Of a stretch of DNA of 59,895 nt, positions 14,164 through 57,627 are shown piece by piece. The position numbers and the translations under genes were made by a program. The stretch comes from Xinfangfangia pollutisoli (GTDB lineage: Bacteria > Pseudomonadota > Alphaproteobacteria > Rhodobacterales > Rhodobacteraceae). Within the stretch, counting starts at the first letter, position 1. Every line of letters begins with the position of its first letter. The notes below the pieces were generated by a model, which ran no database searches, was not told the origin of the DNA, and saw only the letters and a list, made by a program, of their open reading frames with translations. Location: positions 1-59,895 of the forward strand of contig NZ_JAICBZ010000013.1 of the NCBI RefSeq assembly GCF_020179405.1, given 5' to 3'.

Positions 14164-14234
14164 GACCGGAGTTTTCGAAAACTCCGGTCCGGTTCCTTCG
14201 AAGGAACCGGGCCATTTTCTTCGAAGAAAATGGC
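14164..14234. repeat. Triple TTCGAA-centred palindrome cluster (order a-b-c)
   Basis: Three perfect palindromes abut each other: 14164-14189 (26 bp, core AGTTTTCGAAAACT), 14189-14210 (22 bp, core TTCCTTCGAAGGAA) and 14211-14234 (24 bp, core TTTCTTCGAAGAAA). The cluster fills the gap between the convergent ndk and TfoX-domain genes. A sister cluster with the last two modules swapped lies behind cysS at 57558-57627. In RNA each module could fold into a hairpin on either strand, so bidirectional termination is plausible; a protein-binding or REP-like role is equally possible. Confidence 0.85.
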
Positions 14235-55210: not shown

Positions 55211-55813
55211 ATGAAACGTTTTGCGATGGTTCTTGCGGCTTCGGCGGCACTGCCGATGGCCACGGCGGCCTTTGCGGGCGGGATGAGCGAGCCCGTGGTC
55301 GAGCCGGTCATCACCCCGGCGCCGGTGCCGGTGGCGGCGCCGACGGGCGATTGGGGCGGCTTCTACGGCGGTGCGCAGCTGGGCTATGGCGATGTCGACA
55401 CCAACGGGGCCGGCGCCGATGGCAATGGCATGATCGGCGGTATCCATGCCGGCTATCGCTGGGATCTGGGCAAGACCGTTCTGGGTGTTGAAGGCGAATA
55501 TGACACCGCCAATATCGACCTGGACGGCGGCGGCTCGATCGATTCCGTGGCGCGGCTGAAGCTGATGGCCGGGGCCGATCTGGGCTCGAACCTGATCTAT
55601 GCCACCGCGGGCGGCGCCTGGGCGGATGCCAAGCTGGGCGGCAGCAGCGCCTCGGACAATGGCTATTTCTACGGCGTGGGTCTGGAACACCAGATGAACA
55701 GCCAGTGGAGCGTCGCGGGCGAAGTGCTGCAGCACAAGTTCGACGATTTCGACGGTAGCGGCGTGGATGTGGATGCGACCAGCGTCACCGCCCGGGTGAA
55801 CTATCGCTTCTGA
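55211..55813 (+). CDS. Outer-membrane beta-barrel protein (OmpA-like/opacity family)
   Basis: A 200-residue protein with signal peptide (MKRFAMVLAASAALPMATAAFAG), a Pro/Val-rich linker (VVEPVITPAPVPVAAP) and then a small porin-like barrel: GDWGGFYGGAQLGYGDVD, GGIHAGYRWDLGKTVLGVEGEY, LIYATAGGAWADAKLG, YFYGVGLEHQMNSQWSVAGEVLQHKF, and the aromatic C-terminal strand SVTARVNYRF, which is the recognition signal for barrel assembly. Probable eight strands. Its physiological role is unknown. AGGAGAC precedes the ATG. Confidence 0.85.
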   Translation: MKRFAMVLAASAALPMATAAFAGGMSEPVVEPVITPAPVPVAAPTGDWGGFYGGAQLGYGDVDTNGAGADGNGMIGGIHAGYRWDLGKTVLGVEGEYDTANIDLDGGGSIDSVARLKLMAGADLGSNLIYATAGGAWADAKLGGSSASDNGYFYGVGLEHQMNSQWSVAGEVLQHKFDDFDGSGVDVDATSVTARVNYRF

Positions 55814-55839
55814 CGGCGCGGCCTTTCAGGCAGCCGGGG

Positions 55840-55865
55840 GGCCCGCGGTCGAAAGATCGCGGGCC
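55840..55865 (+). terminator. Terminator after the outer-membrane protein gene
   Basis: Arms GGCCCGCG and CGCGGGCC are extended by three further pairs closing a GAAA tetraloop, 27 bases after the stop. A short T-containing stretch follows. The stable stem and GNRA loop support termination. Confidence 0.6.
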
Positions 55866-55904
55866 TTCGGCCGTTTCGGGGGGCGCGGGCGCGCGGAAAT
55901 CCCT

Positions 55905-55932
55905 TTGCCTTGGGCCGGAAAGCGTGTATCCC
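55905..55932 (+). promoter_or_regulatory. Candidate promoter of the Cys-codon leader ORF and cysS
   Basis: TTGCCT, a 16-base spacer and TATCCC. The -10 ends seven bases before the ATG of the small leader ORF, so the transcript should begin at or next to that ATG, which would make the leader message leaderless. No Shine-Dalgarno lies in front of it. Confidence 0.45.
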
Positions 55933-55939
55933 GCGCGCC

Positions 55940-55984
55940 ATGACGACATTGCGCGCCATTCGCATCTGCTGCATTCCCCGCTGA
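55940..55984 (+). CDS. Small leader ORF with tandem cysteine codons upstream of cysS
   Basis: A 14-codon ORF encoding MTTLRAIRICCIPR, then TGA. Two consecutive TGC (Cys) codons at positions 10 and 11 lie 108 bases before the cysteinyl-tRNA synthetase start. It has no Shine-Dalgarno, but a promoter-like pair places the transcript start at its ATG. The peptide itself is probably without function; translation past the Cys codons would report charged tRNA-Cys. Similar leaderless Cys-rich ORFs act as cysteine attenuators in mycobacteria. Expression is not shown by sequence alone. Confidence 0.5.
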   Translation: MTTLRAIRICCIPR

Positions 55985-55992
55985 CCTTTCGG

Positions 55993-56070
55993 CGCGGGTG
56001 CTTCGTCATGACCTTCTGACAAGCCCTCGCGCGGGGACTGCCTGCTGTGCGACCGCCGCTTTCTGAGGGC
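55993..56070 (+). promoter_or_regulatory. cysS leader with alternative base-pairings
   Basis: Segment 55993-56003 can pair with 56021-56031 (ten of eleven positions including one G-U). GCCCTC at 56023-56028, inside that stem, can instead pair with GAGGGC at 56065-56070, which contains the only Shine-Dalgarno-like GAGGG of cysS. The two pairings exclude each other. CCCCG at 55976-55980, at the end of the leader ORF, can also pair with CGGGG at 56032-56036. This is the layout expected for a translation-controlled attenuator. Confidence 0.4.
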
Positions 56071-56080
56071 CTGCGACAAG

Positions 56081-57544
56081 ATGGTGACCATCCGGCTGAC
56101 GAATTCGATGACCCGGCGGAAGGAAGACTTCCAGCCGATCAACCGCGACCGGGTGGGCATGTATGTCTGCGGTCCCACGGTCTATGACCGGGCGCATCTG
56201 GGCAACGCCCGTCCGGTGGTGGTGTTTGACACGCTGTACCGGCTGCTGCGCAATGAATATCAGCCGGATCATGTGAAATATGTCCGCAATTTCACCGATG
56301 TCGATGACAAGATCAACGCCGAGGCGCAGCGGCGCAAGGCGGCGGGCCGGCCCGAAAGCCTTGAGGCGCTGATCCGCGAGCGGACCGAGGAAACCATCGC
56401 CTGGTATCATGCCGACATGGACGCGCTGGGGGCGCTGCGCCCGGATGTGGAACCGCGGGCGACCGAATTCATCGGCGCGATGATCGCGATGATCGAGGGG
56501 CTGATCGCGGCGGGCCATGCCTATGAGGCGGCGGGTCATGTTCTGTTCCGGGTGCGGTCCTACCGCAATTACGGCGCGCTGTCGGGCCGGTCGGTCGATG
56601 ACATGATCGCGGGGGCGCGGGTCGAGGTGGCGCCCTTCAAGGAAGACCCGATGGATTTCGTGCTGTGGAAGCCCTCGGATGCCGATCTACCGGGCTGGGA
56701 CAGCCCCTGGGGCCGCGGCCGTCCGGGCTGGCATATCGAATGCTCGGCCATGAGTTACGAATTGCTGGGCGACAGTTTCGACATTCATGGCGGCGGGCTG
56801 GACCTGCAATTCCCGCATCATGAGAACGAGATCGCGCAAAGCTGCTGCGCCCATCCGCAGGGCGGCTTCGCCCGCTATTGGCTGCACAATGAGATGCTGC
56901 AGGTCGAGGGCAAGAAGATGTCCAAATCCCTGGGCAATTTCTTCACCGTGCGCGATCTGCTGGGCCAGGGCATCCCGGGCGAGGTGATCCGCTTCGTCTT
57001 CCTGATGACGCATTACCGCAGCCCGATGGACTGGACGGCGGAAAAGGCGCGGCAGGCGGAAGCTACATTGAGGAAGTGGCACCGTGTCTTGACCGGTGTC
57101 GCTCCCACACGCCCCGACGACGTTGTGGTCCACGCTCTTGCGGACGACCTGAATACGCACGGCGCATTGCAGGCGCTTCGCGGTCTCTATGACCGGTTAG
57201 AAGATGTGCGGAAAGTCGAAGCATACGGTCATCCCAATGACAGATCGAGCTTGGCAGAGTCCGGGGATGCAATAGAGGGACGTTTTGTAGCTTCGGCTCA
57301 ACTGCTGGGTCTCCTGCTCGCGGGAGGGGACGCCTGGATTGGAGCCGGCGTCGATCTCGCTCCCTACACCGCGCGTCTGACCGCACTGCGCGAAGCCGCC
57401 ATGGCGTCAAAGGACTTCTCCGCCGTCGACGCGCTGAAATCCGCCCTGACTGCGGCCGGGGTCGAGGTGCGCATGTCCAAGGCCGGGGTCGAACTGCTGC
57501 CGGGCCCGGGCTTCGATGCCTCGAAGCTAGAGGCGCTGCAATGA
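56081..57544 (+). CDS. cysS: Cysteinyl-tRNA synthetase
   Basis: Charges tRNA-Cys. The 487-residue class I synthetase has [18 protein letters not shown] with the first zinc cysteine and the HIGH-type HLGN motif (about residues 27-44). It also has WHIECSAMS (second zinc cysteine), [11 protein letters not shown] (zinc histidine) and [11 protein letters not shown] (KMSKS). The C-terminal DALR-like helical domain follows. The only Shine-Dalgarno-like sequence, GAGGG, is 11 bases from the ATG, rather far. Residues about 328-440 are encoded by DNA with clearly lower GC and unusual codons. A Cys-codon leader ORF lies upstream. Confidence 0.94.
57062..57390 (+). other. Low-GC, atypical-codon segment inside cysS
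   Basis: Codons rare elsewhere in the window (TTA, AGA, ATA, GTA, many ACA, GCA, CGT, GGT, CTC) appear suddenly after 57061 and fade near 57390. The 60-base rows 57181 and 57241 have 30 and 33 G/C, against 40 in the row at 57001. The frame and protein similarity remain intact, so this looks like homologous replacement from another organism. The right edge is only approximate. Confidence 0.7.
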
Positions 57545-57557
57545 TCGTCCGTGCCCA

Positions 57558-57627
57558 CCGGAGTTTTCGAAAACTCCGGCCAAGTTTCTTCGAAGAAACT
57601 TGCCAAATTCCTTCGAAGGAATTTGGC
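57558..57627. repeat. Triple TTCGAA-centred palindrome cluster (order a-c-b)
   Basis: Three palindromes in a row: 57558-57579 (22 bp, core AGTTTTCGAAAACT), 57581-57602 (22 bp, core TTTCTTCGAAGAAA) and 57602-57627 (26 bp, core TTCCTTCGAAGGAA). The cores equal those of the cluster behind ndk, but the last two are swapped and the outer arms differ while remaining self-complementary. It lies 13 bases after the cysS stop, ahead of the citramalate synthase gene in the same orientation. Confidence 0.85.

Follow-up and report, generated by a model that had tools for sequence, protein, structure and literature searches.

A predicted cysteinyl-tRNA-responsive transcription attenuator with a probably leaderless uORF upstream of cysS in Xinfangfangia pollutisoli

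In mycobacteria, leaderless polycysteine upstream open reading frames (uORFs) reportedly act as cysteine-responsive attenuators. Within the Rhodobacterales, the uORFC-8-2 motif (Brewer et al. 2021, PMC8632094) is described from 145 examples, located exclusively upstream of cysS. According to the passage devoted to it, the motif combines an AUG uORF carrying tandem, mostly UGC, Cys codons with two stems, the first of which contains the Cys codons, and with a run of U at the 3' end; it is predicted to act by ribosome-mediated attenuation, with readthrough on stalling (PMC8632094). Across the literature searched, the name uORFC-8-2 was encountered in PMC8632094 only, the main text of that article does not contain the word "leaderless", and its passage on the motif names no antiterminator helix. 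Furthermore, trpL of Sinorhizobium meliloti is described as a transcription attenuator whose transcript starts with the ATG that opens a 14-aa leader peptide (PMC7298713).

The window analysed here is a stretch of 59,895 nucleotides from Xinfangfangia pollutisoli (contig NZ_JAICBZ010000013.1), in which cysS is preceded by a leader that we read as a transcription attenuator responsive to cysteinyl-tRNA, with a probability of about 0.7. This reading is backed by sequence comparison with relatives, which covers the uORF, the promoter spacing, the position of the Cys codons, the A:B hairpin, the U-rich tract and the compensatory changes between arms B and C. The elements of the locus are the following.

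55905..55932, forward strand: promoter P1, TTGCCT-N16-TATCCC, from which the RNA is expected to start at A55940 or a neighbouring base
55940..55984, forward strand: uORF, MTTLRAIRICCIPR plus stop, probably leaderless
55967..55972, forward strand: candidate sensing codons, tandem TGC TGC (codons -5 and -4 from the stop)
55973..55975, forward strand: near-invariant ATT codon (Ile, -3)
55976..55984, forward strand: arm A, the last two sense codons and the stop, 5' arm of a terminator-like hairpin
55989..55998, forward strand: arm B, 3' arm of the A:B hairpin, whose GCGCGGG (55992-55998) can pair with arm C instead
55999..56014, forward strand: U-rich tract after A:B, weak in the window (4 T in 8)
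56026..56032, forward strand: arm C, CUCGCGC, which can pair with B as an alternative, putatively antiterminating stem (z -1.45; one G-U pair in the window)
56081..57544, forward strand: cysS, cysteinyl-tRNA synthetase, with a TIGR00435 match above its cut-off

With uORFC-8-2, as described in that passage, the leader shares its location upstream of cysS in Rhodobacterales, the AUG uORF and the tandem Cys codons in which UGC dominates. The Cys codons are usually the 14th and 15th in the motif and the 10th and 11th of 14 in the window, although the numbering may differ. The first stem of the motif holds the Cys codons; here codons -5 and -4 are paired with a mean probability of 0.39-0.75 in folds of 68 leaders. 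The second stem has a clear counterpart in A:B. As to the 3' U run of the motif, the tract after A:B is enriched in U among relatives and weak in the window. The attenuator family is, as described in PMC8632094, already in print as a prediction, the window holds a further example of it, and what is new is the structural and mechanistic detail. The mycobacterial uORFs, in so far as the title of Canestrari et al. (2020) and the passages citing it describe them, are leaderless short ORFs encoding Cys, as is probably the case here, but they belong to a different phylum, precede operons of cysteine metabolism and are cited as cases of translation attenuation, whereas here the downstream gene is cysS and a terminator-like hairpin is found. 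The trpL leader, as portrayed in PMC7298713, resembles the window in being alphaproteobacterial, in its 14-aa peptide and in an RNA start at the ATG, which is inferred in our case; it differs in having Trp codons and preceding trpE(G), where the window has Cys codons and cysS.

The uORF occupies 55940-55984, with the DNA sequence ATGACGACATTGCGCGCCATTCGCATCTGCTGCATTCCCCGCTGA and the peptide MTTLRAIRICCIPR; its stop is followed by 96 nt before cysS starts with the ATG at 56081, and 108 nt separate the tandem TGC codons from that same ATG. A sequence-only reading of this DNA had pointed to such a 14-codon ORF 108 nt before cysS, and both its presence at this position and its conservation in relatives are borne out. 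On both strands, the window contains 198 ATG ORFs of 10-18 aa (nested ATGs counted), eight of which carry tandem Cys, and the uORF is the only one among the 198 to end in CCIxx. Upstream, a strong GC-rich hairpin at 55837-55868 follows an ORF ending at 55813 and is likely the terminator of that ORF; because of its position after the upstream gene, the cysS leader probably forms a transcription unit of its own.

Within cysS itself, residues ~325-415 (57053-57325) show a likeness to relatives of 70% at best and 48% in the median, while the best likeness is 83-95% before this segment and 85% after it. The TIGR00435 match in the genome of the window ends at 57097, inside the divergent segment, which is possibly recombined or fast-evolving. 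Moreover, the palindromes TTTTCGAAAA, TTTCTTCGAAGAAA and TTCCTTCGAAGGAA occur both at 57564-57621 and at 14172-14229, in a different order, and represent a repeated element.

For the comparison, 80 cysS loci were fetched by protein similarity, most of them from Rhodobacteraceae by title, some under vague or odd titles. Two (L041 and L056) were dropped with only 80 and 20 nt of upstream DNA, leaving 78 usable loci. The sequence-only reading had proposed to look for the ORF in the cysS upstream regions of relatives, and the uORF is indeed conserved, being present in 73 of these 78. The five loci without it are L039, L042, L051, L059 (Rhodobacter capsulatus) and L060, and three changes on the cysS tree account for its presence and absence. 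An ATG ORF of 8-30 aa with tandem Cys, at most 220 nt upstream of cysS, was found in 55 of 79 sequences (the 78 related loci and the window), against ~1.0 expected from shuffles; in other families of the class, a tandem-Cys ORF precedes cysS in 2 of 30 loci, with 0.34 expected. On comparative grounds, conservation is the decisive evidence that the uORF is real.

A larger collection comprised 177 distinct leaders. Of these, 72, including the window, were not found with our own covariance model and are referred to as unselected; the 105 others were found with model R2, so the end of the uORF, the hairpin and the U tract were selected for in them; the model covers neither the promoter nor arm C. 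One leader (L186) is cut by a contig end. A TA element was scored in choosing the ATG for the 177-leader set, and only length and Cys content for the 78-locus set.

The codon pattern is best defined relative to the stop. A Cys codon occupies position -4 or -5 in 69 of the 72 unselected leaders (173/177 overall), and 54 of 72 (132/177) have tandem Cys. Peptides of relatives are mostly 13-14 aa long with Cys at -5/-4, the number of Cys codons per uORF ranges from one to four in the unselected set, and usage over the 177 leaders is 430 TGC to 10 TGT. Among the leaders of relatives, that of Paracoccus versutus (L106) is a single-Cys form; Thioclava pacifica (L057) also carries the leader. Position -3 is Ile in 71 of 72 unselected leaders (176/177), encoded by ATT in 68 of 72 (170/177), while ATT accounts for 147 of the 1201 Ile codons in the cysS genes of the same 72 leaders. 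As far as these sequences go, ATT at -3 is a constraint at the nucleotide level. That Ile is retained at -3 so widely (71 of 72 leaders) could also be taken to mean that what is conserved is the peptide itself, which might arrest the ribosome or act in trans, rather than the decoding of Cys codons, and a trans-acting peptide derived from an attenuator is known in Sinorhizobium, as reported in PMC7298713. However, the last residue varies among the unselected leaders (R in 43, G in 16, C in 10, others in three), the -3 codon is ATT in nearly all of them and the Cys count is not constant, and we regard this explanation as very improbable.

In the window, P1 consists of TTGCCT (55905-55910), a 16-nt spacer and TATCCC (55927-55932), ending seven bases before the ATG, and no Shine-Dalgarno (SD) sequence precedes the uORF ATG; on both points the sequence-only reading agrees with the DNA. 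Across the leaders, the uORF ATG is preceded by a TA near -12 combined with TTG or TGG near -35 in 159 of 177 (65 of the 72 unselected), compared with 52 of 8516 control ATGs inside cysS (0.6%), and the same pattern appears again in 31 further loci found with a model that does not include this region. Position frequencies before the ATG, computed over 75 rows which include one spurious row (L056) and in which the ATG was chosen by length and Cys content, are 80% for T at -35, 65% for T at -12, 64% for A at -11 and 90% for C at -1. SD-like sequences precede the uORF in 9 of 177 leaders and in one of the 72 unselected. The length of the uORF shifts by whole codons among relatives (39-57 nt) while the spacing between promoter and ATG is near-fixed, which argues that the AUG is tied to the transcription start. 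From the promoter spacing, the uORF is probably leaderless, with a transcript beginning at or next to the AUG. A scan of 55800-56150 with strict sigma-70 and terminator rules returned no promoter and no terminator, and a search of the window for the promoter pattern with the spacing of the relatives gave no match; the TA in the window lies one base farther from the ATG than the pattern allows.

A further promoter-like element is seen in the leaders of relatives. A TGNTA element lies within 93 of 177 leaders (22 expected by shuffling) and within 24 of the 72 unselected, and in 79 of the 93, e.g. L043, L077 and L115, it is located 42-48 nt past the uORF stop. In the arrangement TT-N18-TGNTA, the TA follows a conserved TT by 23 nt, the same spacing as in P1. 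The uORF-less loci L039, L042 and L060 retain TGCTA upstream of cysS, and the leader in the window contains no TGNTA pattern. The element may be a second cysS promoter which bypasses the attenuator.

The stop codon lies within the first conserved hairpin, A:B, which begins 3-4 nt past the second Cys codon. In the window it folds at -13.1 kcal/mol (z -1.66), close to the mean of -12.1 kcal/mol over the 177 leaders, and the loop between the arms is short in the leaders compared. At least six pairs from arm A form in 68 of the 72 unselected leaders, and a hairpin is present in 177 of 177 under the loose criterion of any pair from arm A; A:B exceeds shuffles by more than one standard deviation in 59 of 71 leaders, and 95.4% of its cells are paired, where versions slid along the sequence reach 16-53%. 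Pairs of A:B show almost no covariation of the classical kind, no more than shuffles do, as would be expected if the stop codon fixes the arm. The last codon and the facing base of arm B nevertheless change together on the tree, with 16 contrasts, 9.8 in the same direction and 1.6 in the other (median p 0.039, range 0.002-0.34). RNAalifold, run on a plain MAFFT alignment of 63 leaders, gave no consensus structure and no pairs, and the leader of the window as a whole is not unusually stable (z -1.18).

After the hairpin comes a tract rich in U. A density of at least 4 T in 8 is reached there by 162 of 177 leaders and by 63 of the 72 unselected, against a background of 15%. These tracts are imperfect, as at least 5 T in 8 starting at most two bases from the stem is found in only 40 of 177, and strict terminator rules identify no terminator at the locus in the window or in L083. 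Both observations would suit a mechanism in which A:B is itself no efficient intrinsic terminator and mainly pauses the polymerase or sets up Rho-dependent termination, the position of the ribosome on the uORF protecting or exposing the RNA. The enrichment in U is, however, strong, and it persists where the second promoter element is lacking (76 of 89 such leaders have at least 4 T in 8), and we consider pausing or Rho rather unlikely as the main role of the hairpin.

In these leaders arm B has an alternative partner farther downstream, the sequence CCCGC(G/C), which is arm C. Over 173 leaders, the pair flanking B:C is C-G in 79 and G-C in 63 (142 together) and neither in 31; four of the 177 were excluded as they have no recognisable B or C, and the window, where the pattern chose a wrong site, counts as a mismatch among the 173; for the tree test, its C base was assigned manually as G. 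On the first 103 rows, the tree test was not significant (eight contrasts, 4.5 vs 0.6, median p 0.22), and significance was reached only after the sample was enlarged to 167 rows, with 20 supported independent contrasts, 13.7 in the same direction and 1.1 in the other (median p 0.001, range 0.0003-0.02). Locus by locus, neither duplex nor gapless scores of B:C are significant against dinucleotide shuffles, with 5 of 72 leaders at 0.05 or below. The pairings A:B and B:C are mutually exclusive, having arm B in common, and tree-controlled changes back both of them, A:B weakly.

The sequence-only reading had envisaged two exclusive pairings, one of them hiding the GAGGG of cysS, and had suggested searching for compensatory changes. 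The pairing GGCGCGGG/CCCTCGCGC is present and matches the B:C helix, for which such changes are found on the tree in the enlarged sample. The conserved hairpin holding the last codons and the stop went unmentioned there. The other pairing, between GCCCTC in the window and the GAGGG of cysS, is possible on paper, but the GCCCTC/GAGGGC stretch folds no better than shuffles (z 0.18). This second stem underlies an account based on translational attenuation, where translation of the uORF decides whether the SD of cysS is hidden, and mycobacterial cysteine genes are cited as being under translation attenuation. With a stalled ribosome, the SD is predicted to be slightly more accessible (mean change +0.038, sd 0.109, n=174); the gain exceeds 0.1 in 42 leaders, and a loss of more than 0.1 is seen in 18. 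This small increase would exceed sampling error if the loci were independent, which they are not; in the window, by contrast, the predicted accessibility falls slightly on stalling, from 0.40 to 0.37. Furthermore, complementarity between C and the SD is practically the same for cognate and non-cognate loci (13.87 vs 13.73) in 77 of the 177 leaders, a set from which the window was left out because the pattern picked a wrong C site. On fold, complementarity and accessibility, SD sequestration is disfavoured as a conserved switch, and translational attenuation is judged unlikely. The part of the sequence-only reading which proposed a leaderless cysteine-responsive attenuator is thereby well supported by comparison, and its SD-based switch finds little support.

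In the favoured reading, which is transcription attenuation, it is inferred where the RNA starts, that the uORF is translated, that ribosomes stall on it, that the polymerase terminates and that the outcome depends on cysteine. The RNA would start at the uORF AUG, and a ribosome would load on the bare 5' end once this has emerged. With plentiful charged tRNA-Cys, the ribosome would read the Cys codons, terminate at UGA and leave, upon which arm A would pair with arm B and the hairpin, together with the U-rich tract, would stop RNA polymerase before cysS. With charged tRNA-Cys in short supply, the ribosome would stall at the Cys codons and cover arm A; A:B being blocked, B would pair with C and transcription would run on into cysS. 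A ribosome with its A site on given codons reaches ~12-13 nt further. Placed on the Cys codons, it would cover the first half of arm A and would therefore block the terminator and leave B for C. The sequence-only reading had seen a weak point in a ribosome which barely touches the upstream stem, and this difficulty is removed, since a ribosome stalled at Cys would overlap the 5' arm of A:B. A ribosome at the stop codon would also cover arm A, so that termination would need fast release: the OFF state would require it to leave before the polymerase moves off the U-rich tract.

Matches to the leader model are common within the family. With E up to 1 allowed, model R2 has a match in 80 of the 120 genomes searched in the family, and at E up to 0.05 in 169 of 295, the two samples overlapping; among the listed genomes with a match at E up to 0.05, each has exactly one. 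Adjacency to cysS was checked for part of the matches, namely at 32 loci (the window and 31 relatives), and holds for all of them. The genome of the window has one significant match, and its two other matches (E 1.9 and 3.3) are not beside cysS, which speaks against a multi-gene regulon. A search of 385 genomes of the class, run with strict filters at the cost of weak matches, gave hits at E up to 0.05 in three of five same-family genomes and in one other; this sole match in another family (G112, E 0.043) is not beside cysS, which within this search speaks against presence outside the family. Our model R1 scores the window at 46.7 bits, the window having been in its training set. The leader has no match in Rfam 15; on relaxing the threshold, two irrelevant hits appear, at E 1.4 and 2.

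A more detailed proposal is advanced tentatively, at somewhat less than even odds. It holds that the stop codon and the last codons form the 5' arm of the terminator, which the stalled ribosome would directly occlude, and that the 3' arm would switch to a covarying antiterminator, with the sensing codons and the nucleotide-fixed AUU at a constant distance from the arm; many relatives would have a second, attenuator-free promoter, surviving in some lineages without the uORF. In the literature searched, no experiment was found on the predicted cysteine attenuator upstream of cysS. If the favoured reading is right, it would provide concrete, testable wiring for this predicted attenuator, and the leaderless attenuators of Alphaproteobacteria would extend from Trp to Cys sensing, with a terminator which contains the stop codon of the uORF.
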